The position numbers and the translations under genes were made by a program. Shown in pieces: positions 4,132-22,510 of a stretch of 63,203 bases of DNA. Below the pieces are notes generated by a model. That model searched no databases. It saw only the letters and a program-made list of their open reading frames with translations, and was not told the DNA's origin. Numbering within the stretch: position 1 is the first letter of the stretch; each line of letters opens with the position of its first letter. Source of the stretch: a virus; IMG/VR virus record IMGVR_UViG_3300036781_000090, positions 1 to 63,203 of that record. One strand, 5' to 3'.

Positions 4132-4161
4132 ACTATACCGGTTATTTTGACAGCCTGTCAA
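4132..4161 (-). promoter_or_regulatory. Promoter with palindromic operator (site A)
   Basis: TTGACAGCCTGTCAA at 4147-4161 is a perfect 7-1-7 palindrome. On the minus strand its TTGACA forms a -35 box, followed after 18 bases by TATAGT at 4137-4132. It would drive the genes from 3972 leftward. The same palindrome is found at three other promoters. Confidence 0.7.
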
Positions 4162-4514
4162 CCCTTATTTCTGACTATTTCCTGCATCTTTTGCAGGTTA
4201 TGCCGGGCGTCCCAAAGGGCCTTGGCAATGGGCAGCGGATCAATGCCCTTGGATTGCCACCACGCATATTCCCCGCGATTGTGAGCCGCGTCAGGCCCTA
4301 GACGATGCTCGCGGGGGCAAATTGGCAAGCACCACCGATGATCACGACCATTGAGTTTCTTGTATCTAGCATCGCTGAATCTGAGATGGCTTGCCTCGGC
4401 TTGGTCGCCACAAAGCAAACACGGGCATTGGCGAATGTGACGCAGGAATAAGCCAAACTCGTCTGGCTTGCGTTCCTTCTTAGACCGCGATCTGGTCTTT
4501 TCCAGAAACATCAC
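4158..4514 (-). CDS. HNH-like recombination nuclease (DUF968-type)
   Basis: 118 residues with CPCLLCG (about 31-37), ASHLRF, the DHRWCLPICPREHR block and a C-terminal GIDPLPIAKALWDARH. This is the pattern of the DUF968 / phage recombination-nuclease family, a zinc-bound HNH-type fold. It lies directly beside NinB and ERF, so a role in processing recombination intermediates of phage DNA is likely. Coupled by ATGA to the upstream membrane gene. Confidence 0.75.
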   Translation of the reverse strand: MMFLEKTRSRSKKERKPDEFGLFLRHIRQCPCLLCGDQAEASHLRFSDARYKKLNGRDHRWCLPICPREHRLGPDAAHNRGEYAWWQSKGIDPLPIAKALWDARHNLQKMQEIVRNKG

Positions 4515-4888
4515 TTCAGCAGCCAGACCATCGTTAGGCCAAGCGTAAAATAGTGAATTAGCTGATCAAAACCAATCATCACATAGAAATAGTGACGATG
4601 ATTTTCATAAAGCCGAGAGGTAATTCGGCTCGTGATATAATCTGTTACGAAATGGGCAGCGGCATTGATTAGCAACCAGACGCTGAGCATTGGCGTCCAG
4701 TACGGCAACCCAAGTATAATCCCCAATGGGATTGCAGCGCCCATCATGGCGAACGTATAAACTGCAACATGGAGAGAAAGAGCACGGTTTGACTTGCTTT
4801 TATTGAGTGCCATCTTGTCGGATTGTAAAACAAAATCGGCAACCCAATGCGCGAACAATAACCAAATAAGTCCGTAAAAATATTGCAC
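4511..4888 (-). CDS. DUF3307-type membrane protein
   Basis: 125 residues with about four hydrophobic segments. The N-terminal motif LLFAHWVADFVLQSDKMALNK and the later DYITSR...HYFYVMIGFDQLIHY are the signature of the DUF3307 family. Function of the family is unknown to me. It is odd inside a recombination cluster and may be a host-derived or superinfection-related membrane gene. Confidence 0.75.
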   Translation of the reverse strand: MQYFYGLIWLLFAHWVADFVLQSDKMALNKSKSNRALSLHVAVYTFAMMGAAIPLGIILGLPYWTPMLSVWLLINAAAHFVTDYITSRITSRLYENHRHYFYVMIGFDQLIHYFTLGLTMVWLLK

Positions 4889-4918
4889 AGAGTTTTCCTG
4901 TTGTTCGTTGTGGTCTTG

Positions 4919-5308
4919 TTAATGCTTAATCGCATCGTTGAATTGGACGCCATGTTCTGTACCGAAGGCCATCATGATTTCCATAACCGATGTCATTTCT
5001 TCTTTCGATAGGTCCGATGATCGGCGGAGACTTACAAGGCCATTTCCATCCAGGTTCGGCACTGTACGAATCTCTCCCTTCAGAGCATCCAAGAATATTA
5101 GACGCCAATCGTCAGGGGTTAGCTTCTGTCCGTGCCACGGTAACTGCCGCGCAATCTCAGTCAGCATAGCCCAGAAGCGAGAGTTTTGATCGAGCGTCCG
5201 CTTTGCTGCCTTTATCTCAACCCTAGACCCAGAGGGAGCCGCAGCGATAATGCTGGCTGCATTCGCGCGGTCCCCTTTAGAGTTCAAGACTACCGTGTAC
5301 CGGCTCAT
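4919..5308 (-). CDS. ninB: NinB / Orf-type recombination mediator
   Basis: 129 residues matching the NinB (lambda Orf) family: RTLDQNSRFWAMLTEIA (about 37-53), PWHGQKLTPDDWRLIFLDALKGE and a C-terminal MMAFGTEHGVQF. Lambda Orf binds SSB-coated single-stranded DNA and helps load the annealing protein. Here the gene overlaps the ERF gene by four bases, the classic pairing of mediator and annealase. Confidence 0.9.
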   Translation of the reverse strand: MSRYTVVLNSKGDRANAASIIAAAPSGSRVEIKAAKRTLDQNSRFWAMLTEIARQLPWHGQKLTPDDWRLIFLDALKGEIRTVPNLDGNGLVSLRRSSDLSKEEMTSVMEIMMAFGTEHGVQFNDAIKH

Positions 5309-6159
5309 TTTTTAATGGACTTCAGGTGGGTGAGTTGTCCCCGATATACGTCCCGAAGAAACTCCTGCCAATCATAAGGAAGTGTGGCAACGCGGTTGGC
5401 GTTGGTGTCACCCCAGGTTTTAAGCGCGGCCTCGGTCACTATGGCCCTGATTTCTGACTGCATTGCTGCAAATTCTGGCTTCGCCATTGCCTTGGACAAA
5501 CGAGTTACTTCAGGATCGCCAAGAGGGATATTGTTGATTGGGTTGCCCTGCTCGTCCTGCTCGATAGGCTCGATAACGTCAGACGGCTCCGTGACGTGCG
5601 GGTTCTGTCTCTTGCCCTTGCGGGCGTCATCATCGGCGGCTGCGGAAAGCCCAAGGGCGGCTTTGAGGGTATAACGCTGCAAATACGTGATGGTTGACCC
5701 TACGGCCTGAATTTTGTTCTTGCTCCCGCTCACGTCATGAGCACCAGTCAGGCTGTTTTCCTCGGCGTGGCCGTCGCGGTGGGAGATAATGCAGGTAACC
5801 GTTACGGTCGTATTGTCCGATAGAGTACGGAAACGATAGGATAGGCCAACTGATGCTAGAATAGGGTCAATCGTGCGAGAGATTTCAGCCAAATCCTCAT
5901 GAGAGTAATTGGTGTTCCCGTAATTGACCTGACGATTCTTGAATATAACCGGGATTGAGGCTTTGGCGCTCGCCATAGCATTATCAAATGACTTGCGAGC
6001 TTCGTTCTTTTCAAACCGTTCTTGAAGCGTCATAAGCCTCTCAGCAAGCTCAATATTGCCATTGGCAACCGCCTGATTAAGCAAGCTCATTGGCGTGATG
6101 GCCGTGCTAGCGGCTGGCGGGATAACCTGGATTTCCTGTTTCTCTGCGGCGTTGCTCAT
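5305..6159 (-). CDS. erf: ERF family single-strand annealing protein
   Basis: 284 residues from the ATG preceded by AGGA. The core (about 45-190) holds FDNAMASAKASIPVIFKNR, YSHEDLAEISRTIDPILASVGLS and GSTITYLQRYTLKAALGLS, the ERF superfamily signature of P22 Erf. It would coat and anneal single-stranded phage DNA for recombination and concatemer formation in the cytoplasm. The C-terminal third is variable, as in relatives. It is coupled to NinB downstream. Confidence 0.93.
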   Translation of the reverse strand: MSNAAEKQEIQVIPPAASTAITPMSLLNQAVANGNIELAERLMTLQERFEKNEARKSFDNAMASAKASIPVIFKNRQVNYGNTNYSHEDLAEISRTIDPILASVGLSYRFRTLSDNTTVTVTCIISHRDGHAEENSLTGAHDVSGSKNKIQAVGSTITYLQRYTLKAALGLSAAADDDARKGKRQNPHVTEPSDVIEPIEQDEQGNPINNIPLGDPEVTRLSKAMAKPEFAAMQSEIRAIVTEAALKTWGDTNANRVATLPYDWQEFLRDVYRGQLTHLKSIKK

Positions 6160-6161
6160 GT

Positions 6162-6422
6162 TCAATTCCTGTGTTTCTTGATTTGCTCTTGCGCAATCCT
6201 GACAACCAGAAGCGCGGCGGCTAGAGTGGTTGCGGCATTCTTTAGCGCCTCGTCTATTTCGGTGTCATAGATCGGCGTATCGGCCAGAATTTGCATGTAG
6301 TGCTGCAAATCGGCAGCATTCTTAGTCATCTTGTTGGTATGCAGTTCGATGCCATCCAGTGCGATAGATCGCAGATTGTTGTCTGGAAAGGCGACAAATA
6401 CCGGAATTTCTGTATCAGCCAT
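6162..6422 (-). CDS. Hypothetical protein upstream of ERF
   Basis: 86 residues from MADTEIP; AGGAGG lies just upstream of this ATG. Acidic N-terminal half, helical Ala-rich C-terminal half. It could be an ERF accessory factor by position only. Confidence 0.6.
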   Translation of the reverse strand: MADTEIPVFVAFPDNNLRSIALDGIELHTNKMTKNAADLQHYMQILADTPIYDTEIDEALKNAATTLAAALLVVRIAQEQIKKHRN

Positions 6423-8656: not shown

Positions 8657-8685
8657 AACCTAAACCAGTTTTGACAGGCTGTCAA
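8657..8685 (-). promoter_or_regulatory. Promoter with palindromic operator (site B)
   Basis: The palindrome TTGACAGGCTGTCAA occupies 8671-8685. On the minus strand TTGACA is followed after 17 bases by TAGGTT (8662-8657). It would drive the gene starting at 8631. Confidence 0.7.
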
Positions 8686-8703: not shown

Positions 8704-8922
8704 TTATCCGCGCTGATGGTTGCACCGACTATGCGCCAATTTGAGATTTGATTCCTCATTCGTGCCACCCTCCCGAACGCGGACCAGATGCTCAAACGTC
8801 GCGAAGTTAGGATCGCCCGGAGCATTATCGATCATGGGATAGCTGCACCAATGGCACAAACCGCGCTGCGCAAAGAACATTTTAGGCTTTAGCTTTAGTC
8901 TCTTCCGGGTACTTATCCCCAT
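8704..8922 (-). CDS. HNH endonuclease
   Basis: 72 residues: CHWCSYPM (23-30), then TFEHLVRVREGGTNEESNLKLAH and SRCNHQRG form a compact zinc-bound HNH nuclease (two CxxC-type pairs with the H in FEHLV and N in ESNL). The N terminus overlaps the upstream gene by 41 bases in another frame; the ATG at 8880 is an alternative start. Likely a free-standing nicking or homing-type enzyme. Confidence 0.75.
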   Translation of the reverse strand: MGISTRKRLKLKPKMFFAQRGLCHWCSYPMIDNAPGDPNFATFEHLVRVREGGTNEESNLKLAHSRCNHQRG

Positions 8923-9172
8923 TCAGGCCTCTTTTTAGTTTACGAGCTTCGACTTTCCCTGCCTTCGTTAGGAAAACAATATCTCTATTACTAGGCCCAG
9001 TGTCATCGCCGTCCAGCAAGCTCAATTCATAAAGCTCAGTCAGAATATCAGGTTTGAACATTTCGCCGCCTGTCTGATCCCAGAACGGAGACAAAAGTTC
9101 ATCATTGGTGTCTAATTCCTTCTCATCAAAGAGCAGCAAAAGAAGGTCCTGTTGACGTTGCGTTAGGCTCAT
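8882..9172 (-). CDS. Winged-helix-like hypothetical protein
   Basis: 96 residues. MSLTQRQQDLLLLLFDEKEL and a later FLTKAGKVEARKLKRG resemble the first and last parts of a winged-helix domain (the final motif is typical of the wing/helix end in small transcription regulators). Assignment is weak. Confidence 0.55.
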   Translation of the reverse strand: MSLTQRQQDLLLLLFDEKELDTNDELLSPFWDQTGGEMFKPDILTELYELSLLDGDDTGPSNRDIVFLTKAGKVEARKLKRGLNGDKYPEETKAKA

Positions 9173-9839: not shown

Positions 9840-9910
9840 TGGCGGCCCACCTAGGAATCGAACCTAAGAAGTTGCGGTAACGTTACCTCCGCACCCCACC
9901 CAGTCAGGCC
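9840..9910 (-). other. tRNA-like 3' half
   Basis: On the minus strand, the T-arm TTAGG-TTCGATT-CCTAG (9867-9851), the acceptor 3' strand GTGGGCC (9850-9844), a discriminator G and an encoded CCA (9842-9840) look like the 3' half of a tRNA. Upstream, TGCGG/CCGCA pairs around an 11-base loop instead of 7, and no proper D-arm or matching 5' acceptor is found. It is best read as a degenerate tRNA or tRNA mimic, not a functional tRNA. Confidence 0.45.
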
Positions 9911-9934
9911 ATTACGAATGTTCTACCATACACC

Positions 9935-9963
9935 TTGACAGCCGTGCAACAAAATAATACAAT
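9935..9963 (+). promoter_or_regulatory. Strong sigma70-type promoter (site E)
   Basis: TTGACA (9935-9940), a 17-base spacer and TACAAT (9958-9963) form a near-consensus promoter 30 bases before the ATG at 9994. The -35 region TTGACAGCCGTGCAA is a degenerate copy of the palindromic operator found intact elsewhere. It should start the rightward GcrA-GapR-DnaA operon. Confidence 0.75.
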
Positions 9964-9993: not shown

Positions 9994-10236
9994 ATGAAGA
10001 TTGATGCGCGCGATTTGCTCAACCATGCCGAAGTCGAAAGGCTTTTGGCGGAAATACACCGGGCGGCCAAATGGCTACAGCGTTCCCCTGGTGGACTAAC
10101 GGCAGAGCTAGTTGGCAACGGTCGAATCCCTGAGCGCCTAGAGGCTGGCGGCTCTGTGCTGCATTCCACGGCGAAGAAATTGCGCGCGCTTATGGACAAG
10201 CGGATCAAGAAGCTAATTGAGGCGGATAAGAAGTGA
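9994..10236 (+). CDS. First gene of the rightward operon
   Basis: 80 residues from the ATG preceded by AAGG. Helical and basic (KLRALMDKRIKKLIEADKK at the end). No family recognised. It overlaps the GcrA-like gene by GTGA, so the two are co-translated and may work together. Confidence 0.65.
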   Translation: MKIDARDLLNHAEVERLLAEIHRAAKWLQRSPGGLTAELVGNGRIPERLEAGGSVLHSTAKKLRALMDKRIKKLIEADKK

Positions 10237-10661
10237 CTTTCTGGACTGAAGATCGGATCGAGTGGTTGCGCCGGAACATCCATAACGGCCTATCGTCGGG
10301 TGTCACGGCATATCAGATTGGCTGCACACGAAACGCTGCAATAGGCAAAGCTAATCGGATGGGACTGCATTTCAAGTCTAAGGAAGGCCACAAGAGAAAG
10401 CCTATGGGTGGCAAACGAGTGCGTAAAAAGCCCATATTTATTGAACAAATCTACCCTTATCAGGAGGCGACCGTGGTTCCAGAACCAGTTTACGAGCCGC
10501 TACATCTGAGCTTTGGCCAGCTAAAGGATAGCCCGAAAATCTCGCAGTGCCGGTTTATCACATGCGATGGACCAACACGCTACTGCGGTCAACCCGTGAT
10601 CGCGGATTCGTCATGGTGCAAGCATTGCGCAAAGATCGTCTATCACCAGCGCGCGGCTTAG
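10233..10661 (+). CDS. GcrA-like cell-cycle regulator
   Basis: 142 residues, GTG start in a GTGA overlap. The N-terminal WTEDRIEWLRRNIHNGLS...CTRNAAIGKANRMGLHFKSK (about 4-49) matches the GcrA helix-turn-helix, in which the TRNAVIGKxxRLGL motif is diagnostic. The C-terminal CRFITC..TRYCGQPVIADSSWCKHCAKIVY (about 106-136) matches the conserved Cys/Gly end of GcrA that contacts sigma70. In alphaproteobacteria GcrA activates promoters carrying CcrM-methylated GANTC. A phage copy could redirect host RNA polymerase or read methylated phage promoters. The middle linker is basic and proline-containing as in relatives. Confidence 0.85.
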   Translation: MTFWTEDRIEWLRRNIHNGLSSGVTAYQIGCTRNAAIGKANRMGLHFKSKEGHKRKPMGGKRVRKKPIFIEQIYPYQEATVVPEPVYEPLHLSFGQLKDSPKISQCRFITCDGPTRYCGQPVIADSSWCKHCAKIVYHQRAA

Positions 10662-10693
10662 CGTTAACAATAGGTTAATGGACAGGAAATAAA

Positions 10694-11107
10694 ATGGGAC
10701 AAGCAGGAATTGGTGCGATGCTACACTACTTAGGCGGCGGTTCTAAGCACGATCCTAAGGAATATTACGGGCAAACGATTTTGGCCGCTGATATAGCCGA
10801 CGACAAACTAAGCCTAAAGCTTGATGGTGGGAAAACCATTGAAATTTGGGATAATGGCCAATCCTGCTGCGAGAACCGCTACATGCGGACGGATGACGAT
10901 CTCTCATCTTTAGTTGGCAATACTCTAGTTCGCATTGAAGCCAAGGATGGCCCTGACATTGGCGATAACGATTATGATGTTCATGAACAAGTGTTTGTGG
11001 AGGTCGGGACCGACAAGGGTTTTATCACCATCGCCAATCACAATGAACACAACGGCTATTACGGCGGCTTTGGTCTGACCATCACCGAGTCCGACGAACA
11101 GCGTTAA
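10694..11107 (+). CDS. DUF7448-like phage protein
   Basis: 137 residues. The block GQSCCENRYMRTDDDLSSLVG and the end NEHNGYYGGFGLTI are typical of a widespread phage protein family (I recall it as DUF7448) with no known activity. The start has AGGAAATAAA upstream. Confidence 0.75.
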   Translation: MGQAGIGAMLHYLGGGSKHDPKEYYGQTILAADIADDKLSLKLDGGKTIEIWDNGQSCCENRYMRTDDDLSSLVGNTLVRIEAKDGPDIGDNDYDVHEQVFVEVGTDKGFITIANHNEHNGYYGGFGLTITESDEQR

Positions 11108-11135
11108 GTATCCAACAATGAACAAGGAGAGTTAA

Positions 11136-11439
11136 ATGCTCTATGATCCGAAGTGGGAAAAGATTGAAACAAAGGCCGATCCGCACAGCGTTGCTGGGAT
11201 TGATTGTTTGGTTGGAGAATCAACCAGCAGATAAAATATATTGCTATGAGGACAGTGGCCGGTGTTTGGCTGCTCAATATCGGGCGGCTATTGGCGAAAA
11301 ATACATTCCTCCGGGCGCAGATTTGTCGATATTGCGCCTTCCGAAATCTGAATGGCCATTTACCGATATTCTGGAGGATGTTGCGGTTAAAAAACCGCGT
11401 ACTTTTGGTGCTGCTCTAAAACGTGCTCGTTCATTGTAG
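11136..11439 (+). pseudogene. Frameshifted gene
   Basis: The natural start is ATG at 11136, with AGGAG five bases upstream; this frame reads MLYDPKWEKIETKADPHSVAG and stops at 11232-11234. The rest of a coherent protein (WLENQPADKIYCYEDSGRCLAAQY onward to 11439) lies in the +1 frame. The join falls near GCTGGGATTG at about 11197-11206, where one extra G would explain the shift. I remember a Rhizobiales phage family that reads through this region as one protein. It is a pseudogene, a programmed frameshift or a sequencing error. Confidence 0.65.
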
Positions 11440-11457
11440 TGCAGTGTGGAGACAAAG

Positions 11458-11676
11458 ATGTCTGAAACCGAAGCGGAAGCAGCTTTCGCCGCACTGAGAG
11501 TCGCGGAACAAGAATGTTGGTCGATCAATTGCCAAAATTACCCTACGGGCGGTGGAGATGCTGAAGTCGGTTGGGAAGTTATCAGCCATTGGCAGGCTGA
11601 GCCACGCGAACGAGTAGAAGGGTATGGAAGAACTCCTCTTGAGGCCCTTAAGGAAGCTATCGCAAAAAATCGCTGA
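11458..11676 (+). CDS. Hypothetical protein
   Basis: 72 residues starting MSETEAEA after GGAGACAAAG. The segment GDAEVGWEVISHW and the terminal GRTPLEALKEAIAKN suggest a small alpha/beta fold. Family not recognised. Confidence 0.6.
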   Translation: MSETEAEAAFAALRVAEQECWSINCQNYPTGGGDAEVGWEVISHWQAEPRERVEGYGRTPLEALKEAIAKNR

Positions 11677-11707
11677 TATCACTGAACAACAAACAACGGG
11701 AGATTTT

Positions 11708-11845
11708 ATGCCAGACATGCACCTGATGGATTACTACTTCCACAAGATGGTTACTGCGGTTGGGCCAGAATGGCGCATTGCTCGCCGCCGTGCCTATCAG
11801 CACGGCTTCAATAGCGGGTGGACAAACCTTAAGGAGCCGGTCTGA
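11708..11845 (+). CDS. 45-residue hypothetical protein
   Basis: Starts MPDMHLMDYYF after GGGAGATTTT. Helical, with ARRRAYQHGFNSGW. Stop overlaps the next start (TGATG). Family not recognised. Confidence 0.55.
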   Translation: MPDMHLMDYYFHKMVTAVGPEWRIARRRAYQHGFNSGWTNLKEPV

Positions 11846-12030
11846 TGAAAACGGGCGACCCCGACATGCCTGACTTGAGCTTGTGCAGCTTCGAATATCT
11901 TGCCGCCGAAATGAGGAAGCGTGGTGCGACCGTTACGCCTGCGCCTCACGGTGGTGACTTTGAAAGCCCGATGCAGCACATCGCTGACGACATTCGCGAT
12001 GGCGTTTTCCCGCGCAAGTCGCCGCGTTAA
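11845..12030 (+). CDS. 61-residue hypothetical protein
   Basis: Shares one base with the upstream stop and has AAGGAG in the upstream gene. No motif recognised. Confidence 0.55.
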   Translation: MKTGDPDMPDLSLCSFEYLAAEMRKRGATVTPAPHGGDFESPMQHIADDIRDGVFPRKSPR

Positions 12031-12054
12031 CACCCTGTAAGCATTGAGGACGCT

Positions 12055-12291
12055 ATGTCTGACAGAGACGCGCATATCGCTATCATGGTTGCTGCCGCCA
12101 GAGGCGTCGGCTTGCGTCTGTCTGCTGATGAAGTCTGGGCGCTATCTCAGGATGAAGCCATCGTAGCAGCCGCTACAAATGGTCTCGACGAGATCGACTG
12201 GCCAGGTCACGCCGATGCTAAATCTTACGTCCGATGGGAAAAGATTAAGCGTTATCGCAAAGGGCGCATCGGTAAGAATTTCGCGGTTTAA
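12055..12291 (+). CDS. 78-residue hypothetical protein
   Basis: ATG follows TGAGGACGCT. The segment LSADEVWALSQDEAIVAAA is an acidic helix pair; the C terminus is basic (KIKRYRKGRIGK). Family not recognised. Confidence 0.55.
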   Translation: MSDRDAHIAIMVAAARGVGLRLSADEVWALSQDEAIVAAATNGLDEIDWPGHADAKSYVRWEKIKRYRKGRIGKNFAV

Positions 12292-12331
12292 CTGTTAACG
12301 GCCCGTCAATGAACAACAAACAGGAGAGAAC

Positions 12332-12634
12332 ATGAAAGAGGGAAATAATAGCACAGCCGAGCGCAACGAATATGGGGCTCGTATCAACAATCTACATAAT
12401 CAAAAAGACGATATCGATCAGGATATCAAAGACATTTACCTTGAGGCAAAGAGCAAAGGAATTGAAGTTCCGGTTCTTAAGCGCGCGGTGAAACTGCTGC
12501 GCGAAGATGAGGAAAAGAAACGCAAGCGTTTGGAAATTGAAGAGGAAGCCGAATTGGTGGCGAAGTCCTTGGGAGAATATCTCAATACGCCTTTGGGCCA
12601 AGCCGCCGTCCGTAATGTTCTAGTGGCAGGTTGA
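12332..12634 (+). CDS. GapR-like (DUF2312) nucleoid protein
   Basis: 100 residues. INNLHNQKDDIDQDIKDIYLEAKSKGIEVPVLKRAVKLLREDEEKKRKRLEIEE (about 18-70) follows the DUF2312/GapR pattern of coiled coil, DIKEVYAEAK helix and ILRKVI-type helix. GapR in Caulobacter is an essential nucleoid-associated protein that clamps overtwisted DNA ahead of forks and promotes topoisomerase action. The phage version extends further at the C terminus (about 30 residues). Leader ATGAACAACAAACAGGAG precedes the start. It sits immediately before a DnaA-domain-IV gene. Confidence 0.8.
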   Translation: MKEGNNSTAERNEYGARINNLHNQKDDIDQDIKDIYLEAKSKGIEVPVLKRAVKLLREDEEKKRKRLEIEEEAELVAKSLGEYLNTPLGQAAVRNVLVAG

Positions 12635-12637
12635 GTC

Positions 12638-13204
12638 ATGAGCCTGTACGAGTATCAACCAACTACGTCAGAATTGAAATTCTATCGAGACAGACAGCGC
12701 GCGCGGGCTAATATGGAAGCCCGCGCCAAGCCAATTAAGCATACCATCAAGTTTAATCTACCGGAGCGCGGCTCCTTCGATTTCTGGGAAATGCCAAGCC
12801 CATGTCAAGGATTTGAAATCAAAACTATTAATGCGGACCGACAGTTATCCCATGTATTTTATACGATTCGAGAAATCCAGGAAATGGTCTGCCTACTTGG
12901 CCACGTTACCTTGAACGATCTTATTTCAGCCCATCGGCATCAAAACATCTGTAATGCGCGCCATGTTGCGGTGGCCCTTTGTCGGGTTTTTACTAGTCGG
13001 TCAATGCCAGAAATAGGCCGTATGTTTGGTGGAAAGGATCATTCAACTATCCATAATTCTATTACCAAAATGAAACCTGTAGTTGCGGAAATTGAATGGT
13101 CATTCAATGCTCAATCTCTGGAGTACATTGTGCGCTCTGCGCTTGATGTGTGTTGGCGTCTATATCCGCCTGCAAAATATTCGCGACATGGCGCTAGGCC
13201 ATAA
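12638..13204 (+). CDS. DnaA domain IV-like DNA-binding protein
   Basis: 188 residues with no ATPase domain. Residues about 90-147 match DnaA domain IV: VTLNDLISAHR, then ARHVAVALCRVFTSRSMPEIG and FGGKDHSTIHN (130-140), the last being the DnaA-box-binding signature (usual form FGGRDHTTVxH). The N-terminal 85 residues are basic and unrelated. It would bind DnaA boxes without loading helicase, so it could compete with host DnaA or act as an origin-recognition factor for the phage. It lies three bases after the GapR-like gene. Confidence 0.87.
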   Translation: MSLYEYQPTTSELKFYRDRQRARANMEARAKPIKHTIKFNLPERGSFDFWEMPSPCQGFEIKTINADRQLSHVFYTIREIQEMVCLLGHVTLNDLISAHRHQNICNARHVAVALCRVFTSRSMPEIGRMFGGKDHSTIHNSITKMKPVVAEIEWSFNAQSLEYIVRSALDVCWRLYPPAKYSRHGARP

Positions 13205-13206
13205 AA

Positions 13207-13786: not shown

Positions 13787-13814
13787 TTGACAGCCTGTCA
13801 AAATAGGCTATGGT
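13787..13814 (+). promoter_or_regulatory. Promoter with palindromic operator (site C)
   Basis: TTGACAGCCTGTCAA at 13787-13801 is a perfect palindrome. TTGACA followed by a 16-base spacer and TATGGT (13809-13814) would drive the plus-strand genes from 13848. Confidence 0.7.
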
Positions 13815-13847: not shown

Positions 13848-14042
13848 ATGTCCTACAAAATCGAAGGTTCGACGGAATGGGGCGCTGGAATTGGTCCGAA
13901 CGGAACCGGAAAGCGCAAAATGGTCTGTGGTTTCTATGTAGTGTCTCCAGAAGGCCGGAAGGTTCGTGCCTTTACCGGGATGAATGCAGAGGCTGATGCT
14001 GGAAAATGGGCCGCTTTCTGCAATGAGAATTTACTCAAATAA
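13848..14042 (+). CDS. Hypothetical protein under site C
   Basis: 64 residues from ATG preceded by GGGGAAGACAAA. It contains KMVCGFYVVSPEGRKVRAF, a small beta-rich fold. First gene after operator site C. Family not recognised. Confidence 0.6.
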   Translation: MSYKIEGSTEWGAGIGPNGTGKRKMVCGFYVVSPEGRKVRAFTGMNAEADAGKWAAFCNENLLK

Positions 14043-14047
14043 TGGCT

Positions 14048-14082
14048 TGTGTGGCCACACAGGAACGCCGGGCGGGGCGTTC
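14048..14082. other. Double hairpin after site C gene
   Basis: TGTGTGGCCACACA (14048-14061) is a perfect palindrome and GAACGCC/GGCGTTC (14063-14069, 14076-14082) forms a second stem. There is no U-tract. It may be an mRNA end or processing site between two genes. Confidence 0.45.
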
Positions 14083-14143
14083 GCCAAAATACCGCCCACT
14101 AATTTCTCGCTAACGACAACTCAATGAACAAAGGGGAAATAAA

Positions 14144-14602
14144 ATGAGCTTGGACGTTTATCTTACCGCCGATGTGCCGCCCACCGCGCCTACTGATGGG
14201 AGCGGCATCTTTGTGCGCCGAAATGGGCAGACTGTTGAAATGTCGCGCGCCGAATGGGATCGCGCATTTCCGGGACAGGAGCCAGTCGTTCTCACTGCTG
14301 AAGCTGATGTTGATCGAGGCGTCTATTCGGCCAACATTACACACAATCTCGGCAAGATGGCTGACGCAGCGGGTATCTATAAGCATCTGTGGCGACCTGA
14401 GGAAATTGGCATCAAGACGGCCAACGAATTGATAGAGCCTCTGGCGGCGGGTGTTGCGCGACTTAGGGCTGATCCTGCCAAGTTTGAACAGTTCAACGCT
14501 TCAAATGGCTGGGGTCTATACGAACATTTTGTTCCGTTCGTTGAAGAATATCTTCGCGCCTGCAAGCAGTATCCTAACGCACTTGTCAGTGTTTCGCGTT
14601 AA
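14144..14602 (+). CDS. Widespread phage hypothetical protein
   Basis: 152 residues. The start MSLDVYLT and blocks VYSANITHNLGKMADAAGIY and NGWGLYEHFVPFVEEYLRAC are shared by a very common phage family of unknown function. Leader ATGAACAAAGGGGAAAT lies before the ATG. Confidence 0.8.
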   Translation: MSLDVYLTADVPPTAPTDGSGIFVRRNGQTVEMSRAEWDRAFPGQEPVVLTAEADVDRGVYSANITHNLGKMADAAGIYKHLWRPEEIGIKTANELIEPLAAGVARLRADPAKFEQFNASNGWGLYEHFVPFVEEYLRACKQYPNALVSVSR

Positions 14603-14612
14603 GGAGCGGTTA

Positions 14613-14840
14613 ATGCTGGAGCGTTTCAAAGAACGAACCGAAAGCGGCGGCATCGTGATCCACGCAGGTGGGTTGGATGGGAACGACTACACGCTTTGCG
14701 GCTACGCCGAGGAAGGTCATGCGATGGGGAGCGAGGACACATCGCTTGAGCCGGTGACGCGCGGGAAGGTGAGCTGCGAAAACTGCATCGCTATCATCCG
14801 GTTCGGCAAGAAATTTCCAGCGAGACTGCTGGCGAGCTGA
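14613..14840 (+). CDS. Hypothetical protein with Cys pair
   Basis: 75 residues from the ATG after AAGGAGCGGTTA. VSCENCIAIIRFGK near the end gives one CxxC; C30 (TLCGY) could complete a metal site. Family not recognised. Confidence 0.65.
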   Translation: MLERFKERTESGGIVIHAGGLDGNDYTLCGYAEEGHAMGSEDTSLEPVTRGKVSCENCIAIIRFGKKFPARLLAS

Positions 14841-14870
14841 TGGAACGTTAATAAAACAGGAGTTCTGAGG

Positions 14871-15056
14871 ATGAAGCACTCTCTCGAAAGAACATCGCCA
14901 AAAGGTAAGCCGTTTATCGGCACCTGCACTCTTTGCGGCGTGGCAAATCTCACGCCAAATGCCGCCCTGCAGGATTGTGAGAATGTGCGCGGACTTTCTC
15001 AGGACGAAGCACTCATCGAAGCGATTGTCGGCCCCGCCTCACGCGTGAAGGCATAG
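14871..15056 (+). CDS. Small Cys-containing phage protein
   Basis: 61 residues. GKPFIGTCTLCGVANLT (12-28) and the terminal LSQDEALIEAIVG are features of a small family I remember from Rhizobiales phages and prophages. One CxxC and one later Cys may bind zinc. Function unknown. Confidence 0.7.
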   Translation: MKHSLERTSPKGKPFIGTCTLCGVANLTPNAALQDCENVRGLSQDEALIEAIVGPASRVKA

Positions 15057-15065
15057 GAGGAGACG

Positions 15066-15236
15066 ATGGCGAAGCGACGGAAAGCAGCAAAGCGCAGACC
15101 TAAAATGTTGGATATCCGCGTCTTGCTGCCACGCGTGAAAGGCAGTGTGCGACTCTATCGCGTGATTGGCATTGGAGAGGACCAGCGTCTCTACGAACTT
15201 CAAGTCGCAACAATGTCCGCCCCGGCGCAACGCTAA
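15066..15236 (+). CDS. Basic 56-residue protein
   Basis: ATG follows GGAGGAGACG. The first 13 residues are strongly basic (MAKRRKAAKRRPK), followed by a short beta-rich part. It may bind nucleic acid. Family not recognised. Confidence 0.6.
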   Translation: MAKRRKAAKRRPKMLDIRVLLPRVKGSVRLYRVIGIGEDQRLYELQVATMSAPAQR

Positions 15237-15263
15237 CGCGTGCTGAATAAGCAGGAGGTTTGA

Positions 15264-15557
15264 ATGGCGAATGATTGCATCATCCTGAACGGCCCACAGA
15301 TGTCCGAGCGCCGTGCCATTCTATACGGTCGTTCCGCGTTGGTTTACTTCGATGGCAAGTGGCTTTCTTATGATCGCGCGCCGGATGATGTCGAAGCGCA
15401 CATAGGCCCGGCGTTGGTAGTGGTCGGCACCACTCATGCAGCGATGGATGAAAACGCGGGCGTGATCTTCGCTCACCCCGAACACCAGCCGACCTTTCTC
15501 GACTATCGCACTTCTACCTTGCACCCGTGCGAGTTTAGCAAAGAGGCAGACCACTAA
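15264..15557 (+). CDS. Hypothetical protein
   Basis: 97 residues after GCAGGAGGTTTGA. Beta-rich composition. No motif recognised. Confidence 0.6.
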   Translation: MANDCIILNGPQMSERRAILYGRSALVYFDGKWLSYDRAPDDVEAHIGPALVVVGTTHAAMDENAGVIFAHPEHQPTFLDYRTSTLHPCEFSKEADH

Positions 15558-15563
15558 TAACGG

Positions 15564-15779
15564 ATGACAATCATGGTCGAGACAATTTCAAAAGAGACCT
15601 TCATCGGCCTAACCGAGCAGATGTTGCGCTTCGGCGGCGCGTGGACGATGTCGCTGAGCAAAGACGGATGCACGCTTTTATATGACGGCAAGACCCACAA
15701 CATTACCGAGCAGATGGCGGATGTCATGTTTAAGTGCATCCCGCGCAAGTGCAAAGACTCACCAGGACCCACCCCATGA
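15564..15779 (+). CDS. Hypothetical protein
   Basis: 71 residues; a second in-frame ATG at 15573 is an alternative start. FGGAWTMSLSKDGCTLLYDG is a beta hairpin. The stop overlaps the next start by ATGA. Confidence 0.6.
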   Translation: MTIMVETISKETFIGLTEQMLRFGGAWTMSLSKDGCTLLYDGKTHNITEQMADVMFKCIPRKCKDSPGPTP

Positions 15780-16924
15780 CCGACACAGCAGCACAGGGAT
15801 TGAGTGAGCGTTCGCCCGGTGACGTAGACCGAGTTATCACACACGACGAGGCGCAGGAGTCAGCGCAACGGCTTATCAATAGCCATTTCCACAAAGAGCC
15901 ACACGCGCGCATCGGTATTCCCGCGCGTCCCGGCTACGACGACGACCTAGTGATCTGCCAATACATTCGCCAGCAAGTCGCCCTCGCCTCCCCGGTGCCA
16001 GCACAAGCGGAAGGGAGGGCATGGGTTGGCAATTCGTATATGCAAGGAGATAAAGTCCTCGGCTTCATAGAGTATTCTGACACGACCGGCTGGCATTGGT
16101 TTGTGCCAAGCGCGTTTGGCGAATTAGGCCAATCTTGGAAGGCTAACGATGCAGCGCAAGCTCGTGAAGCCGTGGTCGCCGCCCTCTCCCCGCAGCCCGG
16201 CGCATCCGACAGCACGCGGGCGGGGTTGAGTGAGGCTGGACGCCAGCTGGTTGCAGACGCCATCGCGGATATGGAAACGAACATCACCCTGTTCAGCCAT
16301 CACAAGGCGCTTTGGCTTAAACTCGGTAAGGAGCGCCTCACCGCCGCTCCCCACGCGCAGCAAGCAACGGTCGGAAATATGACTGTCGGTATCTGCGAAA
16401 GTTTTGCATCAATCGGCATAGACATTTCGGAGGATCAGCTACGCCAGTTCGAGAAGTCGCTGTTCGAGCGTGGTTTAAACTTCGCCCTCCGTACCCCACC
16501 ATCGCCGGGTGAGCATCCCGATGAAAAACCTTTGATTATTCGAGCGGCTGAAAGTGACGCACGCGCCCTGATCGAGCGGATGCTTATTCGTCGCGGTGAC
16601 GTAGAAGGTGTTGCACAAGGTCGAGCAATCGCCATTGCCGAGGCACTGTTGCGCGGTGGCATGTTAGCGCCGCGTGAGCAGAACAGCGCAGAGAAGGCGA
16701 TGTCGCCGGAGGATTGGCAATTCCTAGACCGTCTTAGGCGCGACAACACCTATGACGGATCCCGCTTTGTGATCGAGAGCGAGCCCGATTTCTCCCAAGC
16801 GTTCCGTCTCTCTGACGAAGGCTATATAGGAATAGATCAGCGCGGCACAGGCATCATTTGCCACATCAGCCGAAAGGGACTGAAAGCCCTCAACGCCTCT
16901 CCCTCGAACGCCAAGGCAGATTAG
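15776..16924 (+). CDS. Mosaic hypothetical protein
   Basis: 382 residues from the ATGA-overlapping ATG. It looks like several short modules joined by linkers (a DDDLVICQYIRQQ helix near 55-70, a Trp-rich GWHWFVPSAFG patch near 110-120, a C-terminal SPEDWQFLDRLRR helix). I recall similar patchwork proteins in Rhizobiales phages where modules are exchanged between neighbouring genes. Function unknown. Confidence 0.6.
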   Translation: MTDTAAQGLSERSPGDVDRVITHDEAQESAQRLINSHFHKEPHARIGIPARPGYDDDLVICQYIRQQVALASPVPAQAEGRAWVGNSYMQGDKVLGFIEYSDTTGWHWFVPSAFGELGQSWKANDAAQAREAVVAALSPQPGASDSTRAGLSEAGRQLVADAIADMETNITLFSHHKALWLKLGKERLTAAPHAQQATVGNMTVGICESFASIGIDISEDQLRQFEKSLFERGLNFALRTPPSPGEHPDEKPLIIRAAESDARALIERMLIRRGDVEGVAQGRAIAIAEALLRGGMLAPREQNSAEKAMSPEDWQFLDRLRRDNTYDGSRFVIESEPDFSQAFRLSDEGYIGIDQRGTGIICHISRKGLKALNASPSNAKAD

Positions 16925-16954
16925 TTCTACGCCCTCACCAATCTGGAGATTTAG

Positions 16955-17212
16955 ATGGCCGAATATCCGAAAGAGATGACCCCGGCATTGCGCGAAGTCC
17001 TCGGCATGATGTGTTTCGAGTTCATCAAGCTTGTGCAGGGCTTCCGCGCTGCTGGATACGAAATCAAGACGCGCGCCGAGGATGAGCAGGCGTTCATGCT
17101 GCACTGGCTCATTCCCTTCGCGCTGGAGCATGGCGACAATTGGCGTCAGGCTGCTGGCGTAGAACTCAGTAAAATCTACGAGCAAGCCAAGGCTAAAGAG
17201 AAGGTCGCCTAG
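16955..17212 (+). CDS. Phage hypothetical protein
   Basis: 85 residues, helical: LREVLGMMCFEFIKLVQGFRAAG and FMLHWLIPFALEHGDNWR. The pattern is known to me from Rhizobiales phages without function. Leader TGGAGATTTAG precedes the ATG. Confidence 0.65.
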   Translation: MAEYPKEMTPALREVLGMMCFEFIKLVQGFRAAGYEIKTRAEDEQAFMLHWLIPFALEHGDNWRQAAGVELSKIYEQAKAKEKVA

Positions 17213-17248
17213 CTTATTCATGCGCCATCAACAACACAGGAGACTAAA

Positions 17249-17491
17249 ATGAAAAGCAGAGACTTCGCATTCTGGCTACAGGGTTTCTTTGAACTTGGCG
17301 GCGGCGCGGATGGCCTCAACGCGCAACAGGTTGCCATGGTCAAACAACATCTTGGTTTTGTCTTTCAGCATGACCCCGACATTGCGGCCAAACCTCATGT
17401 CACGCTCGGTCAACCCGCAAGAACCCTATTCCCGAGTCCGCTAACATCGGTCCACGTTCCAACCGACACATCGGCAACGATGATTTGTTGA
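17249..17491 (+). CDS. Conserved Rhizobiales-phage small protein
   Basis: 80 residues. MKSRDFAFWLQGFFELG and LNAQQVAMVKQHLGFVFQH form a helical domain common in phage and prophage proteins of this host group. Function unknown. Preceded by ACAGGAGACTAAA. Confidence 0.7.
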   Translation: MKSRDFAFWLQGFFELGGGADGLNAQQVAMVKQHLGFVFQHDPDIAAKPHVTLGQPARTLFPSPLTSVHVPTDTSATMIC

Positions 17492-17517
17492 TGGCTAGTC
17501 ACTGATGGAGAATTGGA

Positions 17518-17802
17518 ATGGCCTTTGAAGAAGAAATCGCACAGATCAAGCTCGAACATTTCGAGAAACTAAAGTCGCGGCGGCTCATCATTCTTGTCGA
17601 AGCTGACTATGGCTTTGATGTGGAGCAATGGATGCCTGACGGCGTTGCGCCAACATCGTCCTACGATACAGCTCAAGAAGCTGCGGCTCGCGTCCTGCAA
17701 TTGCTGAAATTGAAGGACCCCGTGACGCCGCAGAACTGGCCAGAGGTCGTTGGCATCGGCTCAACCGGCGGCCCACCGGAGCCGCAGCCAAAGATCGTTT
17801 AG
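17518..17802 (+). CDS. Hypothetical protein
   Basis: 94 residues starting MAFEEEIAQIKLEHFEKLKS; acidic helix then alpha/beta, proline-rich tail. Ribosome site TGGAGAATTGGA. Family not recognised. Confidence 0.6.
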   Translation: MAFEEEIAQIKLEHFEKLKSRRLIILVEADYGFDVEQWMPDGVAPTSSYDTAQEAAARVLQLLKLKDPVTPQNWPEVVGIGSTGGPPEPQPKIV

Positions 17803-17833
17803 CGGTTACGTGTCGTCAACAATTGAGGAAACG

Positions 17834-18108
17834 ATGAAACGTAAGGCACATAGGCACGAAGCGACGGCATGGATGGAAGCCCATGTTTCTTACGCGGGCA
17901 GCGAATGCCTGCCGTGGCCTTTCAGCGGAAATTGGAACGGCTACGGCCATCTAGGCGTAGACGGAAAGTTGATAATGATAAGCTCGAACAGATTTGCTCC
18001 CTAAAGGGGAAACTGAACCAGCGCGAAATTGGGGCATTGTTTGGTATTTCGTACCAGCACGTGAGCGTTATCCAGAATAAGAAACTGCGCCGTCAGCAAG
18101 CCGCCTGA
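17834..18108 (+). pseudogene. Decayed HNH endonuclease
   Basis: The frame from ATG 17834 starts MKRKAHRHEATAWMEAH and reads ECLPWPFSGNWNGYGHLGV, the N-terminal beta part of a common phage HNH endonuclease family, then stops at 18001-18003. The last part in another frame (DKLEQICSLKGKLNQREIG, then FGISYQHVSVIQNKK, to 18108) is the family's usual C-terminal helix-turn-helix. The HNH core that should lie between them is missing. The gene has therefore lost its catalytic middle by deletion with a frameshift. Confidence 0.75.
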
Positions 18109-18158
18109 GTAAATTGGTGTCATCACATAAATGTTAATTAGAAATAAGTGAACAGAAC

Positions 18159-18365
18159 ATGGCACATATCACGATCCAAGACCTAGAGCGTCGAGCTAAC
18201 CTTCAGCGTCTCATTGACCGTAAGGATGCTGCTAGAGGACGCCCGCTTACTGATGCTGAGAAGGCCGCAAATCTGATGCGCGCCATGACGCATTGTTGGG
18301 AGTGTGAAGGATATGTTGGTTGGAGCGCTGAAACTTGTAGCCACTGTGGCAAACAACTAGTTTAG
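18159..18365 (+). CDS. Small zinc-ribbon protein
   Basis: 68 residues. A basic helical N-terminal half is followed by CWECEGYVGWSAETCSHCG (46-64), two CxxC pairs forming a zinc ribbon. Function unknown. Confidence 0.65.
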   Translation: MAHITIQDLERRANLQRLIDRKDAARGRPLTDAEKAANLMRAMTHCWECEGYVGWSAETCSHCGKQLV

Positions 18366-18383
18366 TTCATTAATCATAAATGA

Positions 18384-18632
18384 ATGAACATGAATTATAG
18401 AATCCCAAAGTCTACGCCGCTGGCGCTTAAGCGCCTGAATGCACGGGTTGACCGAAACCGCAAGGCTCGCGAAGATGCAGCGAACAAAGAACCAGAAGAT
18501 GCCTTTGGCACGATGATGACGCAAATTGATTGTCCAGCATGCGATGATACTTTTGATATGGAAGGCGACCGTGACGGTGAGATAATCAATTGCCAGAATT
18601 GCAATACGCCTCTTCGTATCCGCCGAATGTAG
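18384..18632 (+). CDS. Small zinc-ribbon protein
   Basis: 82 residues (second ATG at 18390 possible). CPACDDTFDM (about 50-59) and CQNCNTPLRI (about 70-79) form a zinc ribbon after a basic N-terminal helix. Adjacent to another zinc-ribbon gene. Confidence 0.65.
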   Translation: MNMNYRIPKSTPLALKRLNARVDRNRKAREDAANKEPEDAFGTMMTQIDCPACDDTFDMEGDRDGEIINCQNCNTPLRIRRM

Positions 18633-18672
18633 CTCACTAACGAGTTGTTAATCACCAATACGGCAGGAAACA

Positions 18673-18945
18673 ATGGATATTCTGGAGGCACTGAACAAAG
18701 GTGTTAAAATCCGCACTGTTGATGGTGTCGATATTTGGTATCATGAAAACTACCCAATCGATGACCTTATAGAAGAAGCTGCCGAAGAAATCTCTATTCT
18801 TCGTAAGCACTTGAAAAAAATTATTGGAGAAAAAGATATCGCAGATATTCTTTGGTCCGACCTTCCAGACACAGAGCTTGTAACGGTATCAATTCGACTA
18901 AAAGAATATCGGGATATGAGCAAGTATCTAAAATCTTCTCGTTAA
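18673..18945 (+). CDS. Hypothetical protein
   Basis: 90 residues, acidic and helical. The ATG follows CAGGAAACA. No motif recognised. Confidence 0.6.
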   Translation: MDILEALNKGVKIRTVDGVDIWYHENYPIDDLIEEAAEEISILRKHLKKIIGEKDIADILWSDLPDTELVTVSIRLKEYRDMSKYLKSSR

Positions 18946-19092: not shown

Positions 19093-19120
19093 TTGACAGC
19101 CCGGCAATAATCTCTAAATT
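19093..19120 (+). promoter_or_regulatory. Putative promoter (site F)
   Basis: TTGACAGCCCGGCAA (19093-19107) matches the phage operator at 13 of 15 positions and keeps the TTGACA box; TAAATT follows after 16 bases. It would drive the genes from 19281. Confidence 0.5.
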
Positions 19121-19280: not shown

Positions 19281-19520
19281 ATGACCCACGAAGACCTAAT
19301 CATCACAAATCACGCCATTGAGCGTTACCAGGAACGTATCGCCTACGTTAGCCGGGAAGACGCTGTTGTGGCCATTCGAATTGGGATAGCTGCCGCCAAG
19401 GATAAGCATCTAGAACCTCATAGGCTGGCCAAGCGGACGTTCTACATTCCCACAGGTGAAATGACCCTCATTGGATCAAACAATCGCATAGTGACCGTCC
19501 TACGGTCTTCTGGCGATTAA
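19281..19520 (+). CDS. Small phage protein (ITNHAIERYQER motif)
   Basis: 79 residues. IITNHAIERYQERI near the start resembles small RelE/DUF4258-like proteins (xxHAxERxxER), which include toxin-like RNases, but the assignment is weak. No antitoxin partner is visible beside it. The reading frame continues without stop after its TAA (see next entry). Confidence 0.6.
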   Translation: MTHEDLIITNHAIERYQERIAYVSREDAVVAIRIGIAAAKDKHLEPHRLAKRTFYIPTGEMTLIGSNNRIVTVLRSSGD

Positions 19521-19529
19521 CCCCCGTCC

Positions 19530-19691
19530 TTGGTCTGCGAGGGCTTTACTCGTCCAGAATGCAAGCCGTGCCTTAGTCCGGACGTTCTGGAGGTGGATTA
19601 TCTTTGCATGGGCATTCCAGAGACTAAGATGCTATGTACCCTGTGCGCCTCCCGCATTTTCACGTGCGAACCCATTGGTTGGGCAGCATAA
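19530..19691 (+). CDS. Possible zinc-binding ORF
   Basis: In the same frame as the upstream gene and separated from it by one TAA and three codons. It encodes CEGFTRPECKPC and later CTLCASRIFTC, six to seven Cys in a zinc-finger-like array. It has only a TTG start candidate and no clear ribosome site, so expression may depend on readthrough or reinitiation. It ends inside the first arm of the structured region. Confidence 0.35.
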   Translation: MVCEGFTRPECKPCLSPDVLEVDYLCMGIPETKMLCTLCASRIFTCEPIGWAA

Positions 19692-20112
19692 GGCGAGCCG
19701 CTGTTTTGTCAGCCCTCTTCCGCCAGCCAGAAAGAGGGTGAATCTGCCGTGAGGTAAGGTTTGGACGGCGGCTCACCTTATGTTCATTGTCCATCCGTCA
19801 ACGAACAAAAAGAAACCGGCCCCTTTCGGGACCGGGCGCTAGCCGAAGCTAGCTCGGGGCGAAGCTCTTTCCATTTCTGGATATTTTCCCGCGCGGGAAA
19901 ACCATTTTCATGGTGGCGCTGGCTATCTAACGCCCGGGTCCAGCGATCTGATGGTTAGATAGCATGGCGTCATGAAACTTGCACGGCTTTCTGGCATTTG
20001 CTAGATTGTAATGGAGGCACCTGGGGTAGCTCCCCGGATGCTGGGCGGGTGCTTGGCTGGTGACTTTCACACCATTCAACCCCGCCCGCCCTCTAACCCG
20101 ATGAAAGCGGGG
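19687..20112. ncRNA. Highly structured noncoding region
   Basis: No gene is evident in 19692-20116, but stems follow one another: 15-base arms 19687-19701/19768-19782 (14 paired) with an inner CCCTCTT/AAGAGGG; 19816-19822/19828-19835; GCTAGC-CGAA-GCTAGC (19838-19853); TTTTCCC-GCGC-GGGAAAA (19884-19901); GCTATCTAAC/GTTAGATAGC (19922-19931/19954-19963), which competes with CGCTGG/CCAGCG (19917-19922/19940-19945); GGGG/CCCC near 20023-20035; and CCCCGC/GCGGGG (20080-20085/20107-20112) that hides the ribosome site of the gene at 20117. It may be a regulatory leader, an RNA gene or a replication origin. Confidence 0.55.
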
Positions 20113-20116
20113 TAAA

Positions 20117-20722
20117 ATGCAGTATCTCTACGTCCGTAATTGGGCGACATTTCAGCACTACAAATATCGCAATCCGCCGTGGATTAAACTCCACCGGGAA
20201 ATTCTCACAAGCACCGATTGGGTTTCCGTAGATGATGCTAGCAAGCTGCTAGCAATCGTCTGCATGATCGTGGGCGCTAAGGATCAGGGCCGCGTGCCTA
20301 ATGATCCGGCGTTCCTTAAGCGGATAGCCTATCTAGATAAGCTTCCAAATCTTAAACCATTGATTGAATGTGGGTTTCTCACAGAAACGCTAGCAGATGC
20401 TAGCAAACGGGAGCAACTGCGTACAAATGCTCCGACAGAGTCCAGAGTCCAGAGTTCAGATACAGATTTAGAAAGTAAGAAAGTTGATGATGATGTTAAG
20501 AAAAACGGAAAGGGGGATAAAAAAACAAAACCCCAGCATCTTCAGCAAACCCGTGACGGCAAGCGGCTGTGGTGCGACCAAGGGACTTCCGAATGGGTAG
20601 CCTATCTGAATGATTTCAAAGCTGCGCACTCAGGGGTAGACCCAAAGATCGAATGGAATGGCGCTGGCGCATGGTTTAATACGGAAGGGGAAATTAGGAT
20701 GGCTAAGGCTGTTCCAAAATAG
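20117..20722 (+). CDS. Replication-initiation-type protein
   Basis: 201 residues. The N-terminal block NWATFQHYKYRNPPWIKLHREILTS...LIECGFL (about 8-88) matches a winged-helix domain found at the start of many alphaproteobacterial phage replication proteins (O-protein/DnaD-like role). The middle is a charged linker (KKNGKGDKKTKPQ), and the end holds DGKRLWCDQGTSEW. Such proteins bind the origin and bring in the host helicase. The start codon is preceded by GCGGGG inside a hairpin, so translation may be controlled by RNA folding. Confidence 0.65.
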   Translation: MQYLYVRNWATFQHYKYRNPPWIKLHREILTSTDWVSVDDASKLLAIVCMIVGAKDQGRVPNDPAFLKRIAYLDKLPNLKPLIECGFLTETLADASKREQLRTNAPTESRVQSSDTDLESKKVDDDVKKNGKGDKKTKPQHLQQTRDGKRLWCDQGTSEWVAYLNDFKAAHSGVDPKIEWNGAGAWFNTEGEIRMAKAVPK

Positions 20723-20927: not shown

Positions 20928-20928
20928 T

Positions 20929-21468: not shown

Positions 21469-21648
21469 CTACGACCCGACAAATTCAATATTGTCCTTGT
21501 ATCGGTAGGCAAGGTCATTTCGATATTGGTCAACTTCAATAAAATCGCCAGTTTGGCGATCCCTTACGACCCAACGCGAATTCATAGAGTTTCCGTTAGG
21601 AGTAGTTCCGTTTTCACGAGCCGCGATAAACTTGGTTAGTTTTTCCAT
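21469..21648 (-). CDS. Hypothetical protein
   Basis: 59 residues from MEKLTKFIAAREN; an upstream in-frame ATG would add 15 residues without a better ribosome site. Contains WVVRDRQTGDFIEVDQY. Family not recognised. Confidence 0.55.
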   Translation of the reverse strand: MEKLTKFIAARENGTTPNGNSMNSRWVVRDRQTGDFIEVDQYRNDLAYRYKDNIEFVGS

Positions 21649-21713
21649 AGAATGGCACTCTAGGTTCTTAGCCAAATGGCCCGTATTCTTCATTAGAGCG
21701 GTTTCTGTGCGTT

Positions 21714-21884
21714 TTAGTCCGCTTCAAGTACCTGATAGCCCCAAGCCTTACATACAGTCGTCTGCGAGGCTGCGTCGTTGGCTTGTTCTTCGGTTTTGAA
21801 CTCGGAAACGTCTCCTTCGTCATTATCGACGATGGTAATTAGTTTCTGGGTGCTCGGATTGCGCGTGACGATAATGAAGGTCAT
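21714..21884 (-). CDS. 56-residue hypothetical protein
   Basis: MTFIIVTRNP then a beta-alpha arrangement ending WGYQVLEAD, similar in layout to small DUF-type sequence-tag proteins. ATG overlaps the upstream stop by ATGA. Confidence 0.6.
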   Translation of the reverse strand: MTFIIVTRNPSTQKLITIVDNDEGDVSEFKTEEQANDAASQTTVCKAWGYQVLEAD

Positions 21885-22249
21885 TTGCCGTCCTGTGCAA
21901 GCTTGAGGGCTGCGCGGGCAATCCCACCGCCATCACGGGTTACGTCGAAAAGGTACGCACTCCCGTTCGAGAATTTGTCGTCGGCGTCGTTGCGCTGATT
22001 AGCCCCCTCATGCCGCTTAGGATCGGCGTAGAATTCCAATGCAGCAATTAGCATTGTGTGCGAATTAACAGCAAGAGCCATCGAATGAAGATTCGTCTTG
22101 AACTCAGGCGTAACTGGACCGGCTGGCGCGATCAGCATTAGAACACTGACATTACCTGCTTCGTCGGCTGACATGATCGAAAAATCTAACCCATCACCGC
22201 TGCGGCAATCGTGCGGTTGTTCATGAACTTCCCACTTATCGTTTTTCAT
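21881..22249 (-). CDS. Phage hypothetical protein
   Basis: 122 residues. LIAALEFYADPKRHEGAN and a terminal GGGIARAALKLAQDGK resemble a widespread phage family related to the DARLIAAAP proteins (compare the gene at 7776-8072). Leader TGAACAAGAGGTTAGG lies before the ATG. Confidence 0.65.
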   Translation of the reverse strand: MKNDKWEVHEQPHDCRSGDGLDFSIMSADEAGNVSVLMLIAPAGPVTPEFKTNLHSMALAVNSHTMLIAALEFYADPKRHEGANQRNDADDKFSNGSAYLFDVTRDGGGIARAALKLAQDGK

Positions 22250-22285
22250 CCTAACCTCTTGTTCACATATGGCTATTCAGCGCTG

Positions 22286-22456
22286 TTAATTATTGCCAAG
22301 TAGCTTATTGAGGCGGTCGAGCCAATATTGGCTCTTTTCGTATAGTTTGTTTGCCTTCGCCTTTTCTCCGCGCTCAGAAGCTTCATTGGCATCGCCAAGA
22401 TATCGCGCGCTATTCATGTCAGCGTCTGCTATCTTCTGTGCGAGCGTTTTGGCCAT
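22286..22456 (-). CDS. Hypothetical protein under site D
   Basis: 56 residues from MAKTLAQKIADAD after CAGGGGA. Entirely helical, charged. First gene after operator site D, which makes it a candidate regulator, but no DNA-binding motif is visible. Confidence 0.6.
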   Translation of the reverse strand: MAKTLAQKIADADMNSARYLGDANEASERGEKAKANKLYEKSQYWLDRLNKLLGNN

Positions 22457-22481
22457 GTCATTCCCCTGATCTGATATAGCC

Positions 22482-22510
22482 ACCCTACCCACGATTTGAC
22501 AGGCTGTCAA
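22482..22510 (-). promoter_or_regulatory. Promoter with palindromic operator (site D)
   Basis: TTGACAGGCTGTCAA at 22496-22510; on the minus strand TTGACA is followed after 17 bases by TAGGGT (22487-22482), 26 bases before the ATG at 22456. The neighbouring 22515-22582 contains two TTGACGGA copies that may belong to an opposite promoter for 22583. Confidence 0.7.

Follow-up and report, generated by a model that had tools for sequence, protein, structure and literature searches.

The window, by which we mean the whole analyzed stretch of 63,203 nucleotides, maps as a complete phage genome with a 127-base terminal repeat, corresponding to a circle of 63,076 bp with 51% G+C. As judged from its TerL, portal, and major capsid protein sequences, it is an epsilon15-like podophage. 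The portal matches Head-tail_con at 4e-118, the major capsid protein matches the GP7 capsid at 1e-95, and the epsilon15-type TerL is 46% identical to that of epsilon15 and 62–66% identical to those of the closest metagenomic relatives kept. The TerL type, the GP7-type capsid, and the Head-tail_con portal are shared with epsilon15-like podophages, whereas the genome here is larger (63 kb) and its early region is distinct. No near DNA match to the first 25 kb was found among annotated phages, and a tail-protein search yielded no closer relatives. The interval 790–22600 is 12.4% non-coding, a fraction that, like the gene map, rests on manual curation of open reading frames; the boundaries of transcription units were deduced from strand and from the gaps between genes. 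The tyrosine integrase profile PF00589 gave no match up to E=1, and no recombinase appeared among the Pfam families listed (best 25 per scan) for early or late open reading frames. An IS1595-family element (about 23520–25680) lies between gene 22583 and the terminase genes, with an ISXO2-like transposase at 24695–25621 on the minus strand, terminal inverted repeats, and the 8-bp target duplication AAAACTAT on both sides.

The 15-bp palindrome TTGACAG-N-CTGTCAA occurs intact four times, at 4147, 8671, 13787, and 22496, and in degenerate form at 19093 (two mismatches) and 9935 (three mismatches), as the initial annotation had reported. On the minus strand, the palindrome at 4147–4161 is part of a predicted promoter, TTGACA-18-TATAGT (4132–4161), ahead of the leftward unit 3972–790; that at 8671–8685 is part of TTGACA-17-TAGGTT (8657–8685) ahead of the unit 8630–4158; and that at 22496–22510 is part of TTGACA-17-TAGGGT (22482–22510) ahead of the unit 22456–20703, divergent from gene 22583. 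On the plus strand, the degenerate palindrome TTGACAGCCGTGCAA gives TTGACA-17-TACAAT (9935–9963) before the rightward unit 9994–13761, the intact palindrome at 13787–13801 gives TTGACA-16-TATGGT (13787–13814) before the unit 13848–18945, and the degenerate TTGACAGCCCGGCAA gives TTGACA-16-TAAATT (19093–19120) before the unit 19281–20722. All six sites hold a perfect-consensus −35 hexamer with a −10-like hexamer 16, 17, or 18 bp away, in agreement with the earlier claim, although at 8671 and 22496 the −10 hexamer is weak, matching the consensus at just three of six positions. The genome's best −35/−10 pairs include those at 4161 on the minus strand and at 9935, 13787, and 19093 on the plus strand. 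Five sites are wholly intergenic, and the 4147 site covers four bases of the upstream stop codon. The sites had been described as lying just before a gene, which is correct except for genes 19281 and 3972, starting about 170–175 bp downstream. They had also been assigned to all early promoters; they stand at the head of six of the roughly seven early transcription units, and only the leftward unit 9801–8704 lacks one, with the degenerate 9935 site 134 bp upstream. None of the six sites is among the predicted terminator hairpins, and a matrix scan showed zero sites in the structural region.

Read in gene orientation, the consensus is (CAG)TTGACAG-C-CTGTCAA(AA), with the central C in three of the four intact sites; the flanks and −10 regions differ among the sites. 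Allowing up to three mismatches, eight matches were found against 2.57 expected, a number reached in none of 100 shuffles. To correct for having searched among all palindromes, every perfect one with 7-base arms and gaps of 0–12 was counted: the genome contains 81, and TTGACAG-N-CTGTCAA is the sole recurring one (four times); no such recurrence was observed in 59 of 60 simulated genomes, and a single pair in the other. These results removed the concern that the sites might be no more frequent than chance. The composite TTGACAGNCTGTCAAAN6-8TANNNT fits all four intact sites (expected 0.00). The proposed scan of the whole circle, conducted with a symmetric matrix built from the six sites, ranked them as the genome's top six (17.5–25.4 bits, against a median of 13.4 and a maximum of 18.0 for the best match in random genomes), a ranking that is partly circular for the degenerate sites 9935 and 19093 since the matrix was built from all six. 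The operator-promoter architecture, that is, a symmetric site that recurs beyond chance and overlaps the core promoter at each unit start, can be read directly from the DNA. Neither the 15-mer nor its core turned up in any paper when the literature was searched.

Downstream of the 9935 site, a single unit encodes three proteins homologous to DNA-binding proteins of the host's cell cycle or replication, all on the plus strand: a GcrA-family protein, homologous to a host cell-cycle regulator (10233–10661), a GapR-like protein (12332–12634), and a DnaA C-domain protein (12638–13204). A phage GcrA homologue has a precedent in phiCbK-like phages (PMC3556154). Immediately upstream of the 9935 site, a tRNA-like 3′ end (GGTTCGATTCC, ...GGGCCGCCA) was observed at 9840–9914 on the minus strand; neither ARAGORN nor Rfam detected a tRNA there, and there is no cloverleaf fold. 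The CtrA consensus is TTAA-N7-TTAA, and CtrA boxes are a known phenomenon in phages of Alphaproteobacteria (PMC9437464). Here, six such 15-bp boxes lie at intercistronic junctions of early genes, at 2553, 8072, 9183, 9506, 10664, and 14599. In 1000 simulated early regions, the spacing of 7 occurred 0.33 times on average and three times at most, and none of the spacings from 0 to 20 occurred more than five times. Since the majority of the boxes share a few bases with a start or stop codon, the structure of gene junctions could account for part of the pattern. Because the phage carries the GcrA-family protein, the GapR-like protein, and the CtrA-like boxes, its host is probably an alphaproteobacterium.

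Transcription by sigma-70 requires TTGACA and a −10 hexamer, not any particular spacer sequence. The spacer-side arm CTGTCAA is nevertheless base-for-base identical at four otherwise dissimilar promoters, and since this exact complement is unneeded for sigma-70, it points to a symmetric DNA-binding protein. We consider the palindrome to be, more likely than not, the operator of one dimeric (or dimer-of-dimers) regulator, likely phage-encoded, that would block sigma-70 at the −35 hexamer. Each site spans the −35 hexamer of a predicted sigma-70 promoter together with the nine spacer bases that follow it. Occlusion would be the simplest effect, because the footprint would cover the −35 hexamer and half the spacer; a bound protein would keep sigma region 4 from the −35 hexamer, and the early units would be silenced or throttled together. 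Such a switch could serve immunity, in a lysogen-like or plasmid-like state, or early shut-off in the lytic cycle. From this layout we infer protein binding, repression, its timing, and the identity of the regulator. The initial annotation had proposed one dimeric regulator that occludes RNA polymerase. Its shared operator is still the best reading given the conservation of CTGTCAA at four promoters, but its candidate genes fared less well: the products starting at 13848 and 22456 have no DNA-binding signature, and that starting at 3972 has only a helix-turn-helix (HTH)-like look by eye.

That no classic repressor gene is visible was confirmed by profile searches. Pfam, PHROGs, and NCBIfam scans (best 25 families of each) identified no repressor family in the 72 early-region open reading frames, and six-frame searches showed no HTH_3 (PF01381) up to E=10, no YdaS, and no match to the Arc and RHH_1 profiles. 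The better-placed gene 22583 (22583–22981, plus strand), divergent from the 22496 operator, was missing from the earlier candidate list. Its 132-aa product, P0001, is our lead candidate and may be the regulator, though we hold this only tentatively. Residues 10–52 have a strand-helix-helix, ribbon-helix-helix-like look by eye, and a single-sequence model of low confidence (mean pLDDT 60.8) places helices at 20–34 and 39–50. A Pfam search with E up to 10 gave no family, the Arc and RHH_1 profiles were unmatched, and fold searches with this low-confidence model gave no match. The candidacy comes from placement and a faint structural look, not from family membership. The gene has no obvious ribosome-binding site. 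Two direct repeats, TTGACGGA, start at 22519 and 22548 (within 22519–22578, plus strand), the only two copies on this strand. A possible P0001 promoter, as read from the sequence, consists of TTGACG at 22548 and AATATA/TATATT at 22571–22578; it does not overlap the palindrome, and transcription from it would begin at about the ATG.

The second candidate is the 59-aa product of 3793–3972 (minus strand), the first sizeable gene past the 4147 promoter; that it is the regulator seems rather improbable. This product showed no significant similarity to the N-terminus of GcrA or to four small proteins of HTH-like appearance (best p 0.06). Annotated phages yielded no homologues of the 22583, 3972, 13848, and GcrA-like products, and viral contigs yielded none of the 22583 and 3972 products. 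Two further leads were discarded. An HTH_28 match at 17869–18108 was rejected as a repressor, as it resembles the C-terminus of a decayed HNH endonuclease; the interval 17834–18108 (plus strand) is probably such a decayed gene, with the N-terminal part and the C-terminal HTH in different frames. The guess that 8885–9172 encodes a winged-helix protein was dropped, its model being unusable.

We also followed the suggestion to look for the site in related phages: 50 related records contained no intact site and one single-mismatch site, and no comparable recurrent palindrome was found in 14 epsilon15-like relatives examined whole or in large part. The bare 15-mer was present in at least 117 stretches of viral contigs, about the chance level by our own estimate, and 25 orientations among the stretches listed were promoter-like. 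In several contigs unrelated to this phage (L009/L026, L086, and the second site of L047/L285), the palindrome-promoter lies directly in front of a small HTH gene of Cro/CI or YdaS type, the arrangement that repressor operators would predict, with HTH assignments mostly below Pfam cut-offs; L097 and L019 are weaker cases. Some viral contigs contain two or three sites. Near the end of one 64.7-kb viral contig (L079, record G095), three sites with at most one mismatch lie within 1.1 kb, with weaker ones upstream, and that phage possibly carries its own multi-site operator set. At L061:3851 and L080:4975/L096:5019, the palindrome-promoter lies before a gene whose 86-aa product weakly matches Phage_DsbA. 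We rejected the idea that viruses in general prefer the TTGACAG arm, as the control TTGACAC-N-GTGTCAA gave 13 matches in the same composite against 11. Since the control palindrome is equally common in promoters, the pattern in viruses seems to arise generally where repressors evolve around −35 boxes and not to mark a single widespread family.

The initial annotation had also offered a host factor as the binder. If an alphaproteobacterial host transcription factor bound the sites, early phage expression would track the state of the host; the phage has no recognizable repressor, it carries CtrA-like boxes, and phage-host regulatory wiring is known in Alphaproteobacteria from CtrA sites in phages (PMC9437464). 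However, in about 85,000 bacterial and archaeal species genomes the operator-promoter composite gave 29 matches, roughly the chance level (about 22 by our own estimate), none of them in Alphaproteobacteria, a scan from which the host may be missing or in which it may use another promoter context. This zero count speaks against a host regulon, and the scan makes a host factor unlikely.

An early or middle phage protein might instead bind the palindrome as an activator or co-factor and aid RNA polymerase. The symmetric site could suit an activator too, weak −10 hexamers occur at 8671 and 22496, and among the phage's products are several DNA-binding proteins (GcrA-like, GapR-like, and DnaA C-domain). 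Yet the perfect −35 hexamer at all six sites speaks against a need for help there and for occlusion, and GANTC (GcrA) sites are absent within 150 bp of both 13787 and 22496, on which ground GcrA was rejected as the palindrome binder; an activator is therefore quite unlikely. That no regulator exists, and that the sites are simply strong promoters for sigma-70 or scattered descendants of a single ancestral promoter, we regard as very unlikely. TTGACA is indeed the sigma-70 consensus and TTGACAGCC, in gene orientation, is common to five of the six sites, but the dissimilar flanks and −10 regions show that they are not recent duplicates, and at four sites seven spacer bases are exactly complementary to the −35 side, which sigma-70 does not need.

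On the favored reading, these six defined promoters and one 15-mer form a compact, testable regulon for an uncultivated phage type, and the 15-mer is a direct bait for a repressor beyond the reach of homology searches. If the regulator belongs to a new small family, recurring early-promoter operators would offer a route to hidden repressors. Together with the CtrA-like boxes and the phage-borne GcrA and GapR, it would tie the control of phage genes to the cell cycle of Alphaproteobacteria. In the boldest version, a small repressor free of detectable relatives (the product of 22583 or of 3793–3972) would control nearly all early promoters through the −35-anchored palindrome, alongside these host cell-cycle inputs, as a cell-cycle-tied switch; we regard this full scheme as rather doubtful.

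The operator-promoter set is real and well supported, and its layout is of a known type with ordinary logic; what is unusual is that the regulator protein is unrecognizable. In cluster A mycobacteriophages (L5/TipsytheTRex, PMC9283540), a regulator site is likewise dispersed over the phage genome, with some copies at promoters. There, however, the repressor binds more than 20 asymmetric 13-bp sites as a monomer, also inside operons where it stops elongation (PMC9283540), whereas the site here is a symmetric 15-mer in four to six copies at unit starts only, and no related repressor was found. CI/Cro (XRE) systems of temperate phages also place a palindrome over the −35 of early promoters, but this phage shows neither an HTH_3/XRE or YdaS protein in six frames nor a tyrosine integrase. 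Gene 22583 resembles Arc/CopG-type ribbon-helix-helix repressors in its strand-helix-helix look and divergent placement, although its product is unmatched by the Arc and RHH_1 profiles and by fold searches on a low-confidence model. Finally, CtrA sites in phages of Alphaproteobacteria likewise represent a regulator motif that recurs within one part of the genome; their motif is not the TTGACAG palindrome, and the binder in that system is a host protein (PMC9437464).
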